Assembly: GCF_035474595.1 (NCBI RefSeq) | Contig: NZ_DATIND010000080.1 | Span: 1-64,000 of the forward strand | Source: Longimicrobium sp. | GTDB taxonomy: Bacteria; Gemmatimonadota; Gemmatimonadetes; Longimicrobiales; Longimicrobiaceae | Reading direction: 5' to 3' | DNA length: 64,000 bases | Part shown: positions 273 to 36,329 of the stretch, piece by piece | How positions within the stretch are numbered: the first letter of the stretch is position 1 | Layout: each line of letters opens with the position of its first letter | Made by a program: the position numbers and the translations under genes | Notes under the pieces: model-generated | Databases searched by the model: none | Seen by the model: the letters and a program-made list of their open reading frames with translations, nothing else | What the model was told of the DNA's origin: nothing

Positions 273-304
273 CCAACACCGGCCTTCGCACTAACGCACC
301 AACG

Positions 305-352
305 CACTCCCGCACTCCCGCACTCCCGCACTCCCGCACTCCCGCACTCCCG
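305..352. repeat. (CACTCCCG)6 tandem repeat at dprA stop
   Basis: Six perfect 8-bp copies run up to the dprA stop codon (358-360). On the dprA strand the unit reads GTGCGGGA, a member of the GTGC repeat class found at many gene ends in this window. Degenerate copies continue leftwards to about 290. Confidence 0.9.
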
Positions 353-357
353 CACTT

Positions 358-1497
358 CTACCGCCGCCGATACTGCTTGCCCGGCAGCGATTCGACCAGC
401 TCGCGCAACTCCAGCCCCAGCAGCGCGGCCAGCACGTTGCTCGGCGCCAGCTCGGCCGCGGCGGCGATGTCGTCCACCGGCCGCGGGTCCGCCGTGAGCG
501 CGGCGTAGACCTTCGCCTCGTCGGGCGCCAGGTCCGCGGGCGGGGGCGGCGGCACGTCGGGGTTGGCGGGCGACGCGGGGCCGGCCGACGCGGTGAAGGC
601 GTGGCCCACGCCGCGCAGCTCCTCCAGGATGTCGGCCGCGGTGGTGACCAGGCTGGCGCCCTCCTTCAGCAGCTGGTTCGTCCCCGCGCTCTGCGGGCTG
701 CCGATGGGACCGGGCACGGCGAACACCTCCTTCCCCTGCTCCAGCGCGTAGCTCACCGTGTGCTGCGCCCCGCTCTTCTCCCCCATCTCCACCACCAGCA
801 CGCCCAGGCTGAGCGCGGCGATCAGCCGGTTGCGGCGCGGGAAGTTCCCCGCGTTCGGCTCCTCGCCCGGCGCCAGCTCGGTCAGCAGCAGCCCGCGCTC
901 GCGCACCCGGGCGAACAGCTTCTCGTTCTCCGGCGGATAGACGCGGTCGATGCCGTGGCCCAGGACGCCGACGGTGGTTCCGCCCGCGTCCAGCGCCGCC
1001 GCGTGCGCCGCGCTGTCGATCCCCCGCGCCATCCCGCTGACGATGGACAGCCCCGCGCGCGCCAGCTCGCCGGAAAGGGAGATGGCGGTGCGCCGCCCGT
1101 AATCCGTGGGCGAGCGCGTGCCCACCACGCCGATGCCGGGCGCGGCCAGCAGCGCCAGGTCGCCGATGGCGAAGAGGAGGTACGGCCGGTCCGGCAGATT
1201 CCGGAACGCGTCCGGGTACGCCGCGTCGTCGGGGGTGATGGCCACGGCGCCCGCCTCGCGCAGCGTCCGCATCGCCTCGTGGGTGCGGCGCAGCCCGTCG
1301 TCGGTGGCCGCGGCGCGGAGGCGCTTCACGAACTCGCGCCCGAAGCCGGGGACCGCCGCCAGCTCGTCCTCGCGCGCGGCCAGCACGCGCTCGGCCGAGC
1401 CGAAGCGCGCCAGCAGCGCCGACAATCGCGCCGGTCCGATGCCGTCGACGATCGCCAGCCGGAGGATGGGTTCCAGCGCGGAGGAGGAGAGGGGCAT
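358..1497 (-). CDS. dprA: DNA-processing protein DprA
   Basis: DprA (Smf) protects incoming single-stranded DNA and loads RecA on it during natural transformation in the cytoplasm. The 379-residue product has a helix-hairpin-helix-like N-terminus (about residues 13-60). The Rossmann-type processing domain follows, with GVVGTRSPTDYG (about 122), SGMARGIDSAAH (about 155), GVLGHGIDRVYPPEN (about 177) and FPRRNRLIAALS (about 219). A winged-helix C-terminus ends the protein (about 315-379). A proline run (about 300) links the last two. The length is normal for the family. It begins 9 bp after the obgE stop, so the two are probably cotranscribed. Other competence genes are not in the window, so actual transformability is unknown. 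Confidence 0.95.
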   Translation of the reverse strand: MPLSSSALEPILRLAIVDGIGPARLSALLARFGSAERVLAAREDELAAVPGFGREFVKRLRAAATDDGLRRTHEAMRTLREAGAVAITPDDAAYPDAFRNLPDRPYLLFAIGDLALLAAPGIGVVGTRSPTDYGRRTAISLSGELARAGLSIVSGMARGIDSAAHAAALDAGGTTVGVLGHGIDRVYPPENEKLFARVRERGLLLTELAPGEEPNAGNFPRRNRLIAALSLGVLVVEMGEKSGAQHTVSYALEQGKEVFAVPGPIGSPQSAGTNQLLKEGASLVTTAADILEELRGVGHAFTASAGPASPANPDVPPPPPADLAPDEAKVYAALTADPRPVDDIAAAAELAPSNVLAALLGLELRELVESLPGKQYRRR

Positions 1498-1506
1498 CCG
1501 CGGGCC

Positions 1507-2535
1507 TCAGGGGCGCCAGGGCTCGGGCTGGTCGTCGTGCGCCTTCTCCTCCTCCACCGCCTTCGCCGCGTGCTGCCACAGCCCTTCCAGCAGCGTGTCC
1601 AGCCCGCGCCGGGCCACCGAGGAGATGACGAACTGCCCCCACGCCTCGGGCGCGTCGACCCGCGGCGTGGGCCAGTCGGGCGGGAGCAGGTCGGCCTTGG
1701 TGAAGACGACCGCGTGCGGCTTGGCGGCCAGCTCGGCCGAGTAGGCGCGCAGCTCGTCCATCAGCCGCGTGTACTCCTCCTGCGGCTCCAGCGCGTCGGC
1801 GGGGATCATGATGGCCAGCGTGCGGGTGCGCTCGATGTGGCGCAGGAACTGGTGCCCCAGCCCCTTCCCCTCGTGCGCGCCCTCGATGATCCCCGGGATG
1901 TCGGCGACGACGAAGGTGCGGTGCCCGGGGAGCTGCACCACGCCCAGGTTGGGCGTCAGCGTGGTGAACGGATAGTCCGCCACCTTCGGCGTCGCGGCCG
2001 AGACCGAGGAAAGGAAGGTCGACTTCCCCGCGTTCGGCTCGCCGACCAGCCCCACGTCGGCAATCAGCTTCAGTTCCAGCGCGATCCGCCGCTCCTGCCC
2101 GGCGAGGCCCGAGTCGGCGCGGCGCGGGGCCTGGTTGGTGGAGGTGGCGAAGCGCGCGTTCCCCCATCCCCCGCGCCCGCCCGCGGCCACCACCATCTCC
2201 TGTCCGTTCTCCAGCAGCTCGCCCAGCACCTCGCCCGTCTCCACGTCGCGCACCGTGGTTCCCGGCGGCACGCGCAGCACCAGGTGCTCGCCGCTGCGGC
2301 CGGTGGAGTTGGTGCCCTCGCCCTTGTTGCCGTTGGGCGCCGCGTACTTCTGCCGATAGCGATAGTCGAGCAGCGTGGACATCTGCCCGTCCGCCCGCAG
2401 GATGATGTCGCCGCCGCGGCCGCCGTCGCCGCCGTCAGGGCCGCCCATGGGCGCGAACGACTCGCGGCGGAACGAGGATGCCCCCGGCCCGCCATCGCCC
2501 GCCTTGATCTGGATTTCCGCGTAATCGAGAAACAC
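1507..2535 (-). CDS. obgE: GTPase ObgE/CgtA
   Basis: Obg is an essential GTPase that binds the 50S ribosomal subunit and links ribosome assembly to stress signalling. The 342-residue protein has the glycine-rich Obg fold first (residues 1 to about 157, with GGPDGGDGGRGGDI near 32). The G domain follows, with G1 GEPNAGKST, G3 DIPGIIEG and G4 FTKADLL. It ends at about residue 342 without the extra C-terminal OCT domain of Bacillus-type Obg, as is common outside Firmicutes. It lies 9 bp upstream of dprA on the same strand and 165 bp downstream of the decarboxylase-like gene. Confidence 0.96.
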   Translation of the reverse strand: MFLDYAEIQIKAGDGGPGASSFRRESFAPMGGPDGGDGGRGGDIILRADGQMSTLLDYRYRQKYAAPNGNKGEGTNSTGRSGEHLVLRVPPGTTVRDVETGEVLGELLENGQEMVVAAGGRGGWGNARFATSTNQAPRRADSGLAGQERRIALELKLIADVGLVGEPNAGKSTFLSSVSAATPKVADYPFTTLTPNLGVVQLPGHRTFVVADIPGIIEGAHEGKGLGHQFLRHIERTRTLAIMIPADALEPQEEYTRLMDELRAYSAELAAKPHAVVFTKADLLPPDWPTPRVDAPEAWGQFVISSVARRGLDTLLEGLWQHAAKAVEEEKAHDDQPEPWRP

Positions 2536-2649
2536 GTCCGCCCACCTCCGGATAAACCCGTCAGGGGGATGAAGATCACCCCTCCCGATCCATCTCTTCT
2601 CTCCTCCCCACCGCCGGTTTCGGTAGATGGAGATCGGAGGATCCGCCCC

Positions 2650-2711
2650 AATGCAGCCCTGCAGTCGCGGAGCGACTTGGTGCTTTTGTTGCCCCCGATT
2701 TCAATCGGGGG
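2650..2711. repeat. Double hairpin overlapping the 2701-3336 gene stop
   Basis: A stem GCAGTCGC/GCGACT-type hairpin (about 2661-2680) is followed by the perfect 9-bp stem CCCCCGATT/AATCGGGGG (2692-2711). The second stem includes the stop codon of the minus-strand gene. There is no T-run on that strand, so this looks more like a dispersed repeat than a classical terminator. Confidence 0.5.
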
Positions 2712-3336
2712 AAGATGCCAATGGCTCGGGCGATGCCGCCGCCTTCGCGCGGATCTCGCCCCACAGCGCGCGCACCCGCTCCGCCGCTTCGGGGGCGACG
2801 AAGCCGCACGCGATCTCCATCGCCTCGTCCACCTCGGCCACCGACGCGCCGGTGTTCAGCGCGCCGCGGAGATGCGAATGCAGCTGGCGTGGCACGTTCC
2901 AGACCGCCAGCAGCGCGGCGATGCACAGCTCGCGCACGCGCAGCTCCAGCCCCGGCCGCCCGATCACCCGGCCGTAGCCGCCGGTGACCATCCAGTCCTC
3001 GAAATCGGGGTGCAGCGCGCGGACGTTCTCGCGCAGCTTCCCGTAGTTCGCGCCGTAGACGGCGTGGCAGACGACGTCTCCCCGCGCCTCCCACGACGCG
3101 GGATCCTCCCCCAGCGCGGGCGGGGCGGGGGAGCCGCCGACCTCGCGCCAGACGCCGAGCGAGTTCAGCGCGTCCGGAAAGCCCACGAACAGGTGCGACT
3201 GGAGGATCACCTCCTCCACCGCCGTCGCGTCGGCCGCGCCGCGCGCCTCCTCCAGCGCGCGCCGCACCGCCCCCGCGTCGCGCGTCGCCAGGGCGGCGGC
3301 CACGCGCAGCAGCGCGCGCCGCGCCGCGTCAGGCAT
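2701..3336 (-). CDS. Carboxymuconolactone decarboxylase family protein
   Basis: The 211-residue protein resembles the all-helical carboxymuconolactone decarboxylase/AhpD fold. This family includes decarboxylases and thioredoxin-like peroxidase partners. The central and C-terminal helices (ELCIAALLAVWNVPRQLHSH and the following GASVAEVDEAMEIACGF) match the usual core with the conserved histidine. The AhpD CxxC pair is absent, so a peroxidase-reductase role is unlikely and the substrate is unknown. Its ATG overlaps the asparaginase stop by 8 bp (shared ATGCCTGA), which implies translational coupling with that gene. The C-terminus is encoded inside the hairpin at 2692-2711. Confidence 0.8.
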   Translation of the reverse strand: MPDAARRALLRVAAALATRDAGAVRRALEEARGAADATAVEEVILQSHLFVGFPDALNSLGVWREVGGSPAPPALGEDPASWEARGDVVCHAVYGANYGKLRENVRALHPDFEDWMVTGGYGRVIGRPGLELRVRELCIAALLAVWNVPRQLHSHLRGALNTGASVAEVDEAMEIACGFVAPEAAERVRALWGEIRAKAAASPEPLASSPD

Positions 3337-4342
3337 CCGGCGCCTGCAGGGCGATCGCGGGGCGGATCTGGCCGACCGGCTCGCCGCGCGTGTTCAGCAG
3401 CTCGGGATAGGCGTGGTGATGCAGCGCGCCGTAGTCGTCCTCGCTGATCAGGTCCAGCTCGCGCAGCACGCCCAGGATGGCCGGGGCCACCGCCCGCGCG
3501 GCGCCGTCCTCCACCTTCAGCGCGATCCCCAGCTCCGCGCCGGGGACGCCCACGCAGTAGACGCCTTCCGCGCCGACCTTGGCGAAGAGCCGCCCCGCCG
3601 CCTGCCGCATCAGCTCCGTGCAGATGCGCCCCTCGCCCGCCACCATCTCCGGGTGCGTCGTCATCGCCTCGAAGACCACGGTGGGCGACCGCTCGCCCGC
3701 GCGCACCGCGGCCGCGAAGGCGGCGAACGACAGCGCCATCTGCCGCAGCGGCAGCGCGAAGCAGGGCACGCCGCACCCGTCGGTCGCCAGCGCGATCGCC
3801 TCTTCCGGCATCCGCGTCCAGCGCGACACCTCGGCCAGCAGGCGCCGCTGCACCGGGTGCTCGGGGCGGTGGTACTCGGCCGGCTCCCAGCCGTGCGCGC
3901 GGGCCAGCATCATCATCCCCGCGTGCTTGCCGGAGCAGTTGTTGTGCAGCCGCCCGGGCTCCAGGTGCGCCTCCTCCAGCTTCCGCCGCGCGTCGTCGTC
4001 GAACGGGGGGTGCGGCCCGCACGCCAGCGCGTCGCTGGTGACCGCCGCCTTCTCCAGGATGCGCGTGGCCACGCCCGTGTGGTCCGCGCTGCCGGAGTGC
4101 GAGCCGCAGCAGAGCGCCAGCTCCTCGGGCGTCAGGCCGTAGCGGTCGTACGCGCCGTCCTCCACCAGCGGAAGCGCCTGCAGCGGCTTGGCGGCCGAGC
4201 GGAAGAAGGTGATCAGGTCGGGGTCGCCGGCGCCGGCCCGCAGGCGGCCCTCGGCGTCGACCACGGCCACGTGCACGCGGTGGCGGCTTTCCGGCACGCC
4301 GCCGCGCGTGACCTCGATGCTGCACTCCGTCGCTTCGTTCAT
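3329..4342 (-). CDS. Asparaginase II family protein
   Basis: The product (337 residues from the chosen ATG) matches the asparaginase II family typified by the thermolabile Rhizobium etli enzyme. Members hydrolyse L-asparagine to aspartate and ammonia, usually in the cytoplasm. Visible signatures are FFRSAAKPLQALPLVEDG near residue 45, CCGSHSG near 80, NNCSGKHAGMM near 140 and ATDGCGVPCFALPL near 190. The upstream in-frame extension (to 4525) is arginine- and proline-rich and looks non-coding, so the start at 4342 with MNEATECSIEV is preferred. The stop overlaps the start of the next gene, so the pair is likely translated together. The link between the two activities is not known. Confidence 0.88.
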   Translation of the reverse strand: MNEATECSIEVTRGGVPESRHRVHVAVVDAEGRLRAGAGDPDLITFFRSAAKPLQALPLVEDGAYDRYGLTPEELALCCGSHSGSADHTGVATRILEKAAVTSDALACGPHPPFDDDARRKLEEAHLEPGRLHNNCSGKHAGMMMLARAHGWEPAEYHRPEHPVQRRLLAEVSRWTRMPEEAIALATDGCGVPCFALPLRQMALSFAAFAAAVRAGERSPTVVFEAMTTHPEMVAGEGRICTELMRQAAGRLFAKVGAEGVYCVGVPGAELGIALKVEDGAARAVAPAILGVLRELDLISEDDYGALHHHAYPELLNTRGEPVGQIRPAIALQAPDA

Positions 4343-4530: not shown

Positions 4531-4752
4531 TCAGCCGCCCCAGCCTTCCGGCGTCGCGTCGAAGTCCTCGGCCATGTGGATGAGGCCGCGAGCGCTCCCT
4601 GGGCGGCGCGGCTGCCGTGGAATCCGAAGCGAGACGATCTTCGCGACGGGCTCGCCTTCCCGGGTGAGGATCACTTCGCCATGCCGCATCGCCAGATCGA
4701 CAACGGCGCGAAGCTCATCCGATGCGTCGCCCAGATCGAAGGTGGTGCTCAT
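4531..4752 (-). CDS. Phd/YefM-type antitoxin, apparently orphan
   Basis: This 73-residue protein has the layout of prevent-host-death antitoxins. A short alpha/beta DNA-binding part contains RHGEVILTREGEPVAKIV (about 24-41). The tail GLIHMAEDFDATPEGWGG is typical of the toxin-neutralising C-terminus paired with PIN-domain toxins. Such a toxin normally follows immediately. Here the next gene on the strand is the asparaginase (start 4342) and the 190 bp between them hold no reading frame of suitable size. It may be a relic, or it may act on a toxin elsewhere. Confidence 0.75.
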   Translation of the reverse strand: MSTTFDLGDASDELRAVVDLAMRHGEVILTREGEPVAKIVSLRIPRQPRRPGSARGLIHMAEDFDATPEGWGG

Positions 4753-5154
4753 GGATCCCGCAGGGTTGAGGTGATCATATCTTCAATTAAAGGATGATCT
4801 CGACGGAATCCCACAATGCGCAACCAGCCGTTGCTGTCCGTGTTGAGCCGCGCTCCGATGCGGCCGCATCCGCACCGATCCGCGGATCAGGCGCGCGCCA
4901 CATCTGCCTGCGGGCGCAAAGCGGACGGATATGCACGCGCTCCGGGCCGGGCGTAATCGTTCCCATAAATCTGGAATTTCCGCGTGAACAGGCGATGTTT
5001 GCACTCCAATCGCGACGTAGAATGTCTCATGCAAGCCCGTTGCGTCGCCGAACGCACAGGTTTATTGTTGGCTGAAAACGTAAAATCTACGGAGGCGATT
5101 CCCATCGCGCGGAGTTCGCGTGTGGGGCCTTCACACCTGGAGCGGAGGCGGACG
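4753..5154. other. Intergenic leader of the peptide array
   Basis: No convincing gene lies in these 402 bp. The stretch 5060-5095 is notably AT-rich for this genome (TTTATTGTTGGCTGAAAACG, then TAAAATCTACGG) and is the most likely promoter area for the precursor array. A TTGTTG at 5065 lies 17 bp before TACGGA, but the match is weak. The first gene has a clear GGAGCGGAGG Shine-Dalgarno region. Confidence 0.4.
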
Positions 5155-5382
5155 ATGCGCAAGAAGCTCAGCCTGAACGTGGACGAGCTCGCGGTGAGCT
5201 CGTTCGAGACCGGCGAGGGTGAAGCGGCCGGGCGCGGCACGGTGCATGGAGAAGCGGCGGCGTGTACCTGCAACGCCTCGTGCGTGTGTCCCAGCGCCAT
5301 CTACTGGTGCGCGGAGATCGCGTACACCGTGTACTCCTGCGACTACACGAAGAACGCGAGCTGCATCACCACTCCCACGTGA
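5155..5382 (+). CDS. Pinensin-like RiPP precursor 1
   Basis: First of eight tandem precursors; 75 residues. The leader MRKKLSLNVDELAVSSFETG matches the KKLxL-x-x-LxVxSF pattern shared by all of them and resembles leaders of pinensin-type lanthipeptides. A glycine/alanine linker ends in GRGTVHG, the presumed protease boundary. The core (about residues 36-75) has seven cysteines, with CTCNASCVCPS followed by YTVYSCDYTKNASC. Thr and Ser next to many Cys residues would suit thioether formation, but no modification enzyme is in the window. The ATG at 5155 is chosen because GGAGG lies 7 bp ahead and the leader motif begins there. The frame is open upstream without meaning. Confidence 0.85.
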   Translation: MRKKLSLNVDELAVSSFETGEGEAAGRGTVHGEAAACTCNASCVCPSAIYWCAEIAYTVYSCDYTKNASCITTPT

Positions 5383-5453
5383 GCGCAGAGGGGTGCGGGC
5401 CAGGCCGGTCCGCACCCCTTCCCGCATCTCCCCGATCCTCCGGAGGTGGACCG

Positions 5454-5690
5454 ATGAAGAAGCTCAGCCTGAACCTCGAACGCCTGGCCGTCACCTCGTT
5501 CTCCACCTCGGCGGCCGAGGAGGGGCGCGGCACCGTGCGCGCGGCGGCGGACGACTGCACCTGCGCGCGGTCGTGCGCCTGCCCATCGGCGTACTTCTAC
5601 TGCAACACCAACCCGGTGAACACCATCTACTCGTGCCAGTACACGGCCAACGCCAGCTGCTGGTACTCGAAGGGGTGCACTCCGGCCTGA
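5454..5690 (+). CDS. Pinensin-like RiPP precursor 2
   Basis: 78-residue precursor, 71 bp after the first. The leader is MKKLSLNLERLAVTSFSTS, the boundary is GRGTVRAAA, and the core is CTCARSCACPSAYFYC followed by NTIYSCQYTANASC and a terminal extension ending GCTPA. Eight cysteines are present, one more than in neighbours 1, 3 and 4, because of that extension. The ATG follows CGGAGGTGGACCG. The core keeps the same CTC-x3-C-x-C-x-[ST]-x-Y layout as precursors 3 and 4, so they form one subfamily (1-4). A secreted modified peptide is inferred; activity is unknown. Confidence 0.85.
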   Translation: MKKLSLNLERLAVTSFSTSAAEEGRGTVRAAADDCTCARSCACPSAYFYCNTNPVNTIYSCQYTANASCWYSKGCTPA

Positions 5691-5752
5691 AGCACCCGCT
5701 GCCCGGCCCACCCCGCGAGCAGAACGTTCCCAACCCGCGAAGTGGAGGCACG

Positions 5753-5995
5753 ATGCAACGCAAGAAGAAGCTGGACATGGACGCGCTGGCGGTGGACAGC
5801 TTCCAGACCACGGAAGCCGAGGAAGGCCGGGGCACCGTGCACGCGCGCGGGATCGAGCCCACGCCGCCGGAATACGCGTGCACCTGCGCCAACACCTGCC
5901 TGTGCAAGACGGCGTACTACCACTGCGGGACCGGATACTACACCATCTACTCCTGCGACTACACGCAGAACGGCAGCTGCGCGGTCACGCAGTGA
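5753..5995 (+). CDS. Pinensin-like RiPP precursor 3
   Basis: 80-residue precursor, 62 bp downstream of number 2. The leader MQRKKKLDMDALAVDSFQTT is followed by GRGTVHARG and a slightly longer linker (IEPTPPEYA). The core has seven cysteines, CTCANTCLCKTAYYHCGTG then YTIYSCDYTQNGSC. AGTGGAGGCACG precedes the ATG. The sequence YTIYSC is identical in precursors 2-4, and aromatic residues are frequent in all these cores. Very similar DNA in the leader-coding segments suggests recent tandem duplication. Confidence 0.85.
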   Translation: MQRKKKLDMDALAVDSFQTTEAEEGRGTVHARGIEPTPPEYACTCANTCLCKTAYYHCGTGYYTIYSCDYTQNGSCAVTQ

Positions 5996-6069
5996 CGACG
6001 GGCGGCGGGAGCGGGGCATCGCGCGCCGCTTCCGCTCCGCCCGGAAGGCATTCGTTCCACGGAGGAGCC

Positions 6070-6306
6070 ATGCAGACCCGGAAGAAGCTCGATCTGGACA
6101 CGCTGGCCGTCGACTCCTTCGCCACGGCGGCGGAGGATGGAGCGCGCGGCACCGTACGCGCGCACGAGAACGAGCCGGACGTGGCCGCGAGGGGGTGCAC
6201 CTGCCAGGGCACCTGCCTGTGCCCCACCGCCTACTACAACTGCGGCACCGGCCCGTACACCATCTACTCGTGCGAGTACACGGCCAACAACAGCTGCCAC
6301 GTGTAG
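6070..6306 (+). CDS. Pinensin-like RiPP precursor 4
   Basis: 78-residue precursor, 74 bp after number 3. The leader MQTRKKLDLDTLAVDSFATA leads to ARGTVRAHE. A charged linker (NEPDVAARG) precedes the core CTCQGTCLCPTAYYNCGTG followed by YTIYSCEYTANNSCHV, with seven cysteines. The strong Shine-Dalgarno GGAGGAG ends 2 bp before the ATG. The core is closest to that of precursor 3 and ends two residues after the last cysteine, so the cysteine framework itself seems to define the product. Confidence 0.85.
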   Translation: MQTRKKLDLDTLAVDSFATAAEDGARGTVRAHENEPDVAARGCTCQGTCLCPTAYYNCGTGPYTIYSCEYTANNSCHV

Positions 6307-6353
6307 CCGGAACGCACGGGTTCATCTCCGCCGGGCAAAGGGACGCAAGCACG

Positions 6354-6602
6354 ATGAAGAAGCTGAAGCTGGACCCCGGGTCGCTCTCCGTGCAGGGATT
6401 CGAGACCGCGCCCGCCGCTCCCGCCCGCGGCACCGTGCAGGCGCTGGCCAGGGGCGTCTGCACCGCGCTGGCGAGCTGCCCGTGCGACACCGGCCAGTGG
6501 GCATGCGGCCCGTTCACCAACCAATCGTGCGACTACACGCGGGCCGGCAACACCTGCGACTCGTTTCCCACCGAGGTGGACCCGACCTGCATCTGTGCGT
6601 GA
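6354..6602 (+). CDS. Pinensin-like RiPP precursor 5 (divergent core)
   Basis: 82-residue precursor, 47 bp after number 4. The leader MKKLKLDPGSLSVQGFETA is the most divergent of the array (GF replaces SF). The boundary ARGTVQALA is kept. The core CTALASCPCDTGQWACG, then NQSCDYTRAGNTC and a tail PTEVDPTCICA, holds eight cysteines. Only the second half resembles precursors 1-4. The Shine-Dalgarno is weak (AAAGGGA about 12 bp upstream), so expression may be lower than that of its neighbours. Confidence 0.82.
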   Translation: MKKLKLDPGSLSVQGFETAPAAPARGTVQALARGVCTALASCPCDTGQWACGPFTNQSCDYTRAGNTCDSFPTEVDPTCICA

Positions 6603-6630
6603 CACGCCGACCCCAACCCGGAGACGGACG

Positions 6631-6834
6631 ATGAAGAAGCTGGAGCTCTCGATCGACCAGCTGGCGGTGGACTCGTTCCCCACCGAAGCCGCCGCGCTCG
6701 AGGAGCGCGGCACCGTGCGCGGCGCGGCGGCCCCGTGCACCGCGTTCGACAGCTGCTACTGCAACACCTCGCTGTACCGCTGCGGAACCATCCGGGCAAC
6801 ATACTCGTGCCCGGCCACGCAGATCTGCCTGTAG
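6631..6834 (+). CDS. Pinensin-like RiPP precursor 6 (short subfamily)
   Basis: 67-residue precursor, 28 bp after number 5, first of the short subfamily (6-8). The leader MKKLELSIDQLAVDSFPTE is nearly identical in 7 and 8, at DNA level too. The boundary is ERGTVRGAA and the core CTAFDSCYCNTSLYRCGT then ATYSCPATQIC has six cysteines. The second half (YSCPATxxC) is shorter than the YSCxYTxNxSC of precursors 1-4. The ribosome site is CGGAGACGGACG. Confidence 0.85.
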   Translation: MKKLELSIDQLAVDSFPTEAAALEERGTVRGAAAPCTAFDSCYCNTSLYRCGTIRATYSCPATQICL

Positions 6835-6860
6835 CGCGGCTCGCAACCGGGAGACGGAAG

Positions 6861-7067
6861 ATGAAGAAGCTGGAGCTCTCGATCGACAGGCTGGAGGTGG
6901 ACTCGTTCCCCACCGCGGCCGCCGCGCCGCCCGAGCCGGGGACGGTGCAGGGGCAGGCGGCCGACTGCACGTCGCCCGCGACCTGCAAGTGCCCCACCTC
7001 GCTGTGGGCGTGCGGCACCGTCGCGTTCACCGCGTACTCCTGCCCGGCGAGCTGGAACTGCGTCTGA
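6861..7067 (+). CDS. Pinensin-like RiPP precursor 7 (short subfamily)
   Basis: 68-residue precursor, 26 bp after number 6, with the same GGGAGACGGAAG ribosome site. The leader is MKKLELSIDRLEVDSFPTA. The boundary reads EPGTVQGQA, so the arginine before GTV is not essential. The core CTSPATCKCPTSLWACGT then FTAYSCPASWNC has six cysteines in the same spacing as precursor 6. Strong DNA identity to genes 6 and 8 over the leader suggests duplication or conversion between them. Confidence 0.85.
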   Translation: MKKLELSIDRLEVDSFPTAAAAPPEPGTVQGQAADCTSPATCKCPTSLWACGTVAFTAYSCPASWNCV

Positions 7068-7078
7068 AGGAGGAGATG

Positions 7079-7285
7079 ATGAAGAAGAAGCTGGAACTCT
7101 CGATCGACGCGCTGGCGGTGGACTCGTTCGCCGCGGGCCAGGCGGAGCGGCGGATGGAGGGAACCGTGCACGCCGCGGCCCGGCCGTGCACGTCGTGGAG
7201 CACCTGCCAGTGCCCCACCTCCGCCTACATCTGCTCCACCCAGCCGGCGACCGCCATCTCCTGCCCCGCCACCTCGCTCTGCTGA
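7079..7285 (+). CDS. Pinensin-like RiPP precursor 8 (short subfamily)
   Basis: 68-residue precursor, 11 bp after number 7, the tightest spacing in the array. Two ATG codons are adjacent (7076 and 7079). The second is chosen because AGGAGG (7068-7073) is then 5 bp away. The leader is MKKKLELSIDALAVDSFAA. The boundary is MEGTVHAAA and the core CTSWSTCQCPTSAYICST then AISCPATSLC has six cysteines and ends exactly at the last cysteine. A terminator-like hairpin follows at 7307, closing the array. Confidence 0.85.
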   Translation: MKKKLELSIDALAVDSFAAGQAERRMEGTVHAAARPCTSWSTCQCPTSAYICSTQPATAISCPATSLC

Positions 7286-7306: not shown

Positions 7307-7342
7307 AGAGCCGCGGGGGGATCGTCTTCCCCTCGCGGCTCT
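7307..7342 (+). terminator. Terminator of the peptide array
   Basis: Stem AGAGCCGCG/CGCGGCTCT with extra G:C pairs encloses GATCGTCTT, then GCTTATCT follows. It lies 21 bp after the last precursor. The T-run is imperfect, so strength is uncertain. Confidence 0.6.
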
Positions 7343-13156: not shown

Positions 13157-13408
13157 ATGAAGAAGCTGAAGCTCGCCCTCGAGGGCCTGCGCGTGGAGTC
13201 GTTCGCCACCGGCGACCTCCGGCGCGGAGGGACGGTGCGCGGGTTCTACGCGGAGGTGGAAAGCCGTGACATCTGCATTCTCACGCGCACGGCCTCGGAT
13301 CCCGCCATCACCTGCCAGGTGGAGTGCGGGACCAGTCTCGGCTACACCTACTGCGTGGACAGCTGCGAGGCCAATCCCACGAACCCCGCCACCTGCCCCT
13401 GCCAGTAG
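13157..13408 (+). CDS. Solitary pinensin-like RiPP precursor 9
   Basis: 83-residue precursor with the same leader type, MKKLKLALEGLRVESFATG, followed by RGGTVRGFY. The core differs from the array: CILTRTASDPAITCQVECG, YTYCVDSCEAN and a terminal CPCQ, seven cysteines in a new spacing. TCGGAGGGACCG precedes the ATG. The gene stands alone and ends in a strong terminator shared with pdhC. It shows that the leader has been combined with unrelated cores at separate loci. Confidence 0.85.
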   Translation: MKKLKLALEGLRVESFATGDLRRGGTVRGFYAEVESRDICILTRTASDPAITCQVECGTSLGYTYCVDSCEANPTNPATCPCQ

Positions 13409-23920: not shown

Positions 23921-24232
23921 TCAGTAGCCGCAGTGCTTGTAGTCCTGCGTGCAGGTGTTGTATTCGGTGGGGTCGCCGCAAGTGTCGCCGCGGCTGAAGT
24001 AGCTGCCGCCGCCGCCGCAACCGTCCAGGCACGAGGCATACTCCGAGCATCCCGCGCCCATCCCCGTGTAGGGCTGCTGCGACGTGGTGCAGCCGGGGTC
24101 CACGCAGGACCAGCAGGTATACTCGTCGACGGTCGCCGCGTTGGCGTTCACGGTGCCGCGCGGCTTCACGCCGCCGCGGGTGCTGAACGATTCCACCTGC
24201 AGCTCGTCGAGGTTCAGGCTGAGCTTCTTCAT
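23921..24232 (-). CDS. Solitary pinensin-like RiPP precursor 10
   Basis: 103-residue precursor. The leader MKKLSLNLDELQVESFSTRG is the clearest match to the pinensin-type pattern. PRGTVNANA follows as boundary. The long core (about 70 residues) has nine cysteines, including CWSCVDPGCTTSQQPYTG, YASCLDGCGGGGS and NTCTQDYKHCGY, rich in Gly and Tyr. GAAAGGATATCGTACC precedes the ATG. Upstream in-frame codons are ignored because the leader starts here. It lies alone, convergent with a CFA-type gene. Confidence 0.86.
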   Translation of the reverse strand: MKKLSLNLDELQVESFSTRGGVKPRGTVNANAATVDEYTCWSCVDPGCTTSQQPYTGMGAGCSEYASCLDGCGGGGSYFSRGDTCGDPTEYNTCTQDYKHCGY

Positions 24233-36008: not shown

Positions 36009-36329
36009 TCAGCATCCGTCCGGTGAGGCACCGGTGGGGCACTGCCCGTTGTCCGACATGCAGTTGAGGAAGTACGTGCAGTCGTAGCCGTCCAGCGTGC
36101 CGCAGTGATAGACGTCGCACGACTGGCAGCTTTCGACGCAGGTCTGCTCCAGCACGCCCCCGCAGGTGGCGTTTCCGCAGGTGTTTCCTCCGTCGCACGT
36201 CGCGTTCACGGTGTCACAGCGCCCGGTGTAACCGATGTGGCCGATGATCGTACCGGCCCCTTTCGGCCCGTTCGCGGTTGTGAACGACTCCACCACCAGG
36301 CTCTCGACCGACAGGCTGAGCTTCTTCAT
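36009..36329 (-). CDS. Solitary pinensin-like RiPP precursor 11 (12-Cys core)
   Basis: 106-residue precursor with the leader MKKLSLSVESLVVESFTTA. The boundary GAGTIIGHIG varies the GTV motif to GTI. The core (about 70 residues) is the most cysteine-rich of the eleven, with twelve. These include CDTVNATCDGGNTCGNATCG, VESCQSCDVYHCGTLDGYDC and a terminal CPTGASPDGC. Thr or Ser precedes eight of them. A well-formed promoter lies about 60 nt upstream and a terminator downstream, so it is an independent transcription unit. Upstream in-frame codons are not counted because the leader begins at this ATG. Confidence 0.86.
   Translation of the reverse strand: MKKLSLSVESLVVESFTTANGPKGAGTIIGHIGYTGRCDTVNATCDGGNTCGNATCGGVLEQTCVESCQSCDVYHCGTLDGYDCTYFLNCMSDNGQCPTGASPDGC

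Follow-up and report, generated by a model that had tools for sequence, protein, structure and literature searches.

The LanM enzymes (class II) of marine cyanobacteria are known to carry out combinatorial lanthipeptide biosynthesis in trans. For these systems, ProcM has been described with 29 substrates and Synechococcus MIT9509 with 79-83 precursors, in gene runs of up to 16 (PMC10783134). A split LanB in pinensin biosynthesis has been stated in a survey of lanthipeptide clusters (PMC7268733). Here, we analysed a window of 64,000 nucleotides from Longimicrobium sp. (Gemmatimonadota; assembly GCF_035474595.1, contig NZ_DATIND010000080.1, positions 1 to 64,000; hereafter contig C80), in which a tandem array of eight short genes at 5155-7285 on the + strand encodes Cys-rich peptides. 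We propose, with a probability of about 0.85, that these eight genes encode precursors of class I lanthipeptides whose leaders are of the pinensin type, and that the single split LanB/LanC system, located on another contig (C23), would modify them in trans.

A sequence-only reading of this DNA had described eight tandem short genes with a common leader, a GTV boundary, 6-8 Cys per core and two core subfamilies (genes 1-4 and 6-8) with gene 5 as an outlier. All eight open reading frames (ORFs), of 67-82 amino acids (aa) each, were confirmed at this location; gene calling in this GC-rich genome used a caller retrained on ORFs biased in GC content at third codon positions. The boundary is present in 8/8 precursors, the Cys counts are 6-8 throughout and the alignment displays the same two subfamilies and outlier. 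The cores (36-52 aa) are rich in Cys, Thr and Ser, and the leaders are free of Cys. The leader pattern KKLxLxxxxLxVxSF holds overall, although QGF replaces xSF in gene 5 and the leaders of genes 3-4 are about one residue shorter; similarly, a ribosome site of its own, ascribed to every gene, is visible as a GGAG/GAGG-like site upstream of most genes but is weak for gene 5.

The link between the array and the enzymes was assessed with a leader profile trained solely on 22 leaders located inside enzyme clusters (that of C23 and those of four relatives) and run against the genome's small ORFs. Scores for the array's eight precursors were 32.6-42.0 bits and three single precursors elsewhere in the window 31.5-40.0 bits, against 5.9 bits for the best unrelated small ORF (among ~1,490), and all other small ORFs above 6 bits read as further precursors of the family. 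Scores no better than those of random small ORFs had been named beforehand as a possible refutation, and the leader family withstood this check.

The sequence-only reading had also suggested that the array is either modified in trans or subject to some other chemistry. One split LanB/LanC cluster was indeed found elsewhere in the genome, with same-leader precursors inside it, and, with LanB, LanC and C39 profiles searched, a chemistry other than the lanthipeptide type is disfavoured for the array. On C23, the order is the LanB glutamylation part, a stand-alone elimination domain, LanC, six same-leader precursors, an ABC transporter without a C39 domain, HlyD and an S8 subtilase, with Pfam matches to Lant_dehydr_C, LANC_like, ABC, HlyD and Peptidase_S8. 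The elimination domain (PF14028) is a separate protein of 346 aa and the sole copy in the genome, and LanC has 683 aa (PF05147, 194.8 bits). Residues C313, C360 and H361 of LanC, which we take from knowledge of NisC to be putative zinc ligands, are invariant in eight sequences, and among PDB sequences the elimination-domain and LanC profiles match those of MibB, NisB, NisC and LANCL. The glutamylation profile PF04738 matched on C4 (128.7 bits) and on C23 (37.3 bits); no second elimination domain was found in the genome with PF14028. The two partial LanB genes, L039:7969-10374 at the C4 end and L037:11215-12690 at the C23 end, could reflect a duplication, a strain mixture or an assembly gap. 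Complete LanB-N/LanB-C/LanC orders are present in six relatives (G001, G007, G008, G009, G014 and G015), where the whole glutamylation proteins have 1055-1104 aa, and in several relatives same-leader precursors likewise lie within the split LanB/LanC cluster. The genome also encodes two C39 protease-transporters, one on C11 and one on C64, neither of them near the LanB cluster.

The leader and the enzymes also occur together across genomes. Among 146 related genomes, 11 carry both the leader and the elimination domain, one carries only the enzyme and none carries only the leader (Fisher p ~1e-15, uncorrected for kinship), and the same-genus genomes G003-G005 have neither the leader nor a split LanB. 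LanM-size LanC proteins do not follow the leader across genomes; the precursors track the split LanB.

The array is part of a much larger family. The source assembly (6.57 Mb, 97% complete, 4% contamination) is fragmented into 163 contigs; within it, precursor 2 as the query gave 133 matches, and a second leader profile (A1; 29 positions, built from 67 leaders) gave at least 150, with E < 5e-7 for all of those listed. The union of both searches comprises at least 159 places in 96 loci on 55 contigs, and eight further precursors read in fetched loci bring the family to at least 167 precursors, a lower bound, in ~100 loci on at least 55 contigs. The contamination could account for a small number of copies, but hardly for a family spread over 55 contigs. 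Genome-wide, arrays contain 1-8 genes, and that at 5155-7285 is the largest among those found. Rather than being a lone orphan, the array represents ~5% of the genome-wide precursor set, which corrects the sequence-only reading. The view of its cores as combinatorial gains from this distribution, with many precursors of conserved leader and diverse core scattered away from one enzyme set. Phylum-wide (395 genomes), large precursor numbers are confined to one family, and each of two further genomes holds one copy. One machine for at least 167 precursors would mean that a whole library of ring topologies is encoded in this genome. We consider it reasonably probable that a single split class I machine with a leader-binding-like LanC domain acts on at least 167 precursors, most of them unlinked to it, and that this is the first class I combinatorial system and the largest per-genome lanthipeptide precursor set known, conserved across a bacterial family.

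The LanC of C23 carries ~240 additional residues C-terminal to the cyclase domain. As the full-length model was of low confidence (predicted local distance difference test, pLDDT, 58), the tail was modelled on its own; its last ~80 residues are predicted to form two strands and three helices, with a pLDDT of ~72-85 in the relevant blocks. The top structural matches are leader-bound recognition elements (RREs) of ribosomally synthesized and post-translationally modified peptides (RiPPs), namely those of lasso peptide systems (TbiB1, lasso synthetase B1; Z 7.3-7.5), followed by PqqD, a sactipeptide synthase and the LanB-type MibB and TbtB. This predicted fold provides a lead that the tail may be a leader-binding RRE-like domain. 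FxLD, with LxLD variants, is a lanthipeptide recognition motif according to an RRE survey (PMC12710340), and LxLD is present in many leaders of this genome. In a metagenome-assembled genome of Acidobacteriota, a discrete 105-aa gene between LanB-C and an ABC gene (L146:13159-13476) by eye resembles the Gemmatimonadota LanC tail, so that a leader-binding-like domain would be discrete there and fused to LanC in Gemmatimonadota.

In the proposed mechanism, the shared leader (KKLxLDxxxLxVxSF...GTV) would dock on a domain that normally lies within the LanB glutamylation part, and a second docking domain would probably be the tail fused to the LanC C-terminus. The glutamylation part would then transfer glutamate from glutamyl-tRNA to core Ser/Thr, after which the stand-alone elimination domain would take the glutamate off to leave dehydroalanine or dehydrobutyrine. 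To these, the presumably Zn-dependent LanC would add core Cys, so that each core acquires several thioether rings. Export of the product and removal of the leader may fall to the ABC/HlyD exporter and the subtilase encoded in the cluster.

The composition of the cores bears on whether such rings are plausible. Cys accounts for 14.7% of the residues in the core but 0.2% in the leader, and Thr for 12.8% of the core. Across 37 pairs of orthologs, conservation in the core is 98% for Cys and 89% for the Ser/Thr class, compared with 68% for DE, 64% for ILVM, 49% for NQ and 44% for KR. Ser plus Thr equals or exceeds Cys in 85/85 cores, against 68.9+/-2.6 expected when the non-Cys residues are redealt, and in 22/22 against 17.5 expected with one core per locus, which served as the control for relatedness since clustering the cores by similarity merged everything into one cluster. 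Ser or Thr stands directly N-terminal to Cys 233 times, compared with 117+/-9 expected, an excess that persists with one core per locus. Judged from sequence, these Ser/Thr:Cys statistics appear to fit dehydration and thioethers better than disulfides. The precursors could instead be secreted disulfide-rich mini-proteins, whose coincidence with the enzymes would merely reflect shared ancestry with true lanthipeptide precursors; the high Cys content, the lack of LanB/LanC near the array in the profiles run on C80 and the fact that the precursors are known from genes alone would suit this. However, the Cys number is odd in 27/85 cores, core Ser/Thr are kept nearly like Cys and are never fewer, the leader (KKLxLD...) by eye is no signal peptide and has no hydrophobic stretch, and the co-occurrence of the leader with the split LanB is near-perfect, which together make mini-proteins very improbable.

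Even less probable is that the eight genes are pseudo-precursors, a decaying or silent reservoir that an expansion left behind and that is no longer processed. Its distance from the enzymes and the gain and loss of genes between species would be expected of such a reservoir, but the reading frames are intact in 8/8 genes, and the G008 genome retains orthologs of six with well-conserved cores. Moreover, in pooled ortholog pairs the ratio of non-synonymous to synonymous changes (pN/pS) is 0.60 for the leader and 0.64 for the core (bootstrap 0.57-0.72), indicating that both parts are under purifying selection. Least probable of all is modification of the array by a LanM (class II) or LanKC enzyme of the same genome in place of the split LanB/LanC. 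LanM-size LanC-domain ORFs do occur on C25 and C136, as does a LanKC-like one on C87, yet the LanM of C136 is accompanied by precursors of its own that carry another leader, G003 carries a LanM-size LanC ORF (963 aa) but lacks the array-type leader, and G007 and G008 are rich in such precursors without a strong LanM-size match outside the split clusters.

Several points nevertheless weigh against assigning the array to the split LanB/LanC. The glutamylation gene of C23 is cut off at the contig end, so the machine is not seen whole in this genome, and the second glutamylation part, at the C4 end, is also cut (77% identical to the C23 copy over the overlap). Only one of the eight array leaders passes the curated pinensin cut-off (NCBIfam NF038180): the pinensin-like leader of the sequence-only reading is thus recognized in gene 4 (27.9 bits, cut-off 24), whereas genes 1, 2, 3 and 6 remain below it (12.7-18.8 bits) and genes 5, 7 and 8 give no match; in the whole genome, NF038180 recognizes 23/67 leaders (E<=0.001). 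The genome also holds two probable LanM proteins and the LanKC-like one, and the search covered LanB, LanC and C39 profiles among RiPP enzyme types that also include YcaO and radical-SAM modifiers. The RRE assignment of the LanC tail is weak (Foldseek E 0.13, Z below 8), and the lanthipeptide system is known here from genes and sequences alone.

Orthologous arrays, with gene gain and loss, are present in G008 (L118:3743-6196) and G001 (L119:13234-15522), and six of the eight genes have G008 orthologs with cores 71-86% identical. Subfamily A comprises precursor 1 (5155..5382, + strand as for all eight; 75 aa, 7 Cys, leader profile 42.0 bits; ortholog L118:3743), precursor 2 (5454..5690; 78 aa, 8 Cys, 38.5 bits; orthologs L118:4029 and L119:14493), precursor 3 (5753..5995; 80 aa, 7 Cys, 39.6 bits; orthologs L118:4876 and L119:14183) and precursor 4 (6070..6306; 78 aa, 7 Cys, 32.6 bits; G008 ortholog 81% identical). 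The outlier core belongs to precursor 5 (6354..6602; 82 aa, 8 Cys, 39.7 bits; ortholog L118:5497, core 71% identical). Subfamily B consists of precursor 6 (6631..6834; 67 aa, 6 Cys, 34.7 bits; ortholog L119:15097), precursor 7 (6861..7067; 68 aa, 6 Cys, 36.1 bits) and precursor 8 (7079..7285; 68 aa, 6 Cys, 36.1 bits; ortholog L118:5990, core 86% identical), which starts at 7079 or, according to the gene caller, at 7076. The gaps between the genes are ~10-75 nucleotides, and a terminator-like hairpin of 15 pairs, a consensus match only, lies at the 3' end of the array (7307..7342, +); because of the short gaps and this hairpin, the eight genes are probably a single transcript. No convincing shared motif was found upstream of 43 leading precursor genes; the 8-mer CACGCGGG was enriched, in 7/43 against 2/385. 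Synteny of the array with the flanking M28 peptidase gene was considered and rejected: the orthologous M28 loci carry no precursors, the G008 and G001 arrays are located elsewhere and no array lies beside the M28 gene in any relative examined. Since the M28 gene of the relatives has no array alongside, arrays appear to move or get lost relative to their flanks.

Outside the array, the window contains three single precursors of the same family that the first reading overlooked, at 13157..13408 (+; 7 Cys, leader profile 31.7 bits), 23921..24232 (-; 9 Cys, 40.0 bits) and 36009..36329 (-; 12 Cys, 31.5 bits), giving 11 in total. The absence of LanB/LanC from the 64 kb was confirmed by PF04738, PF14028 and PF05147, none of which matched on C80; for the stated absence of a protease-transporter, the C39 profile PF03412 likewise gave no match on C80, but the ABC scan took in part of the window genes. 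Those neighbours of the array that were tested have housekeeping or other unrelated functions and encode Obg, a CMD family protein, L-asparaginase II, the M28 peptidase, DUF2442, DUF2911, YkuD and lipoyl synthase. A 73-aa ORF at 4531-4752 (-) by eye resembles a Phd/YefM-type antitoxin (TTFDLGDASDELRAVVDLAMRHGEVILTREGEPVAKIVSLRIP) and had no Pfam match at E<=1e-5.

Other enzyme sets were seen alongside this family. On C136 (L040), a LanM-size protein of 1082 aa (297-3545) accompanies two near-identical small precursors (3617-4231; cores with TFCCDGTKVCCC), whose leader differs from that of the array, as in an independent class II system of the same genome. In G008, a precursor with a repetitive CSNCSDCSNC core (L085:4825-5097, contig C98) adjoins a second split LanB set in that genome, which suggests a repeat-core sub-branch having its own enzymes. 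In G014 (contig C273, L086:7311-16352), two divergent LanB-C-like genes and a LanB-N-like gene, with 25-27% identity to the main set, possibly represent another RiPP cluster, with a precursor of array-type leader at 4576-4800.

Lanthipeptide chemistry and trans modification are each known, but uniting the two through split class I enzymes at such a scale appears to be new, and in the open-access literature we came across no comparable class I system. The system resembles that of the pinensins (class I, from Chitinophaga, Bacteroidota) in that the pinensin leader family NF038180 recognizes some of its leaders (23/67) and in its split LanB plus LanC. Unlike the small pinensin cluster, it has at least 167 precursors, most of them unlinked to the enzymes, a Gemmatimonadota host and a LanC with an extra C-terminal RRE-like domain, the core and enzyme sequences of pinensin itself lying outside this comparison. 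In Longimicrobium terrae, a cultured member of Gemmatimonadota, three lanthipeptide regions without known homologues have likewise been predicted, but that account describes neither a precursor family nor trans modification (PMC7291104). Cluster-based genome mining, which requires an enzyme beside the precursor, would overlook nearly all of these peptides, the array at 5155-7285 included. If our proposal is true, the system would allow tests of how ring patterns across more than 100 differing cores are set by one dehydratase/cyclase pair, and a natural class I enzyme set would be available for making peptide libraries.

The closest parallel in organization is provided by the prochlorosins and synechococsins (ProcM and SyncM; class II, marine cyanobacteria), in which one enzyme set also serves many precursors of conserved leader and diverse core that are both dispersed and arranged in tandem arrays; there they are modified in trans, whereas here they are known from genes alone. 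Unlike the prochlorosins, the present system has a class I split LanB plus LanC instead of LanM, an ABC transporter, HlyD and a subtilase in the cluster, and a pinensin-type leader with a GTV boundary (with NF038180 matches) instead of a Nif11 leader with Gly-Gly, and its precursors per genome are about twice the largest cited set (83). In Gemmatimonadota, a tRNA-dependent class I system appears to perform combinatorial trans modification with about twice as many substrates.

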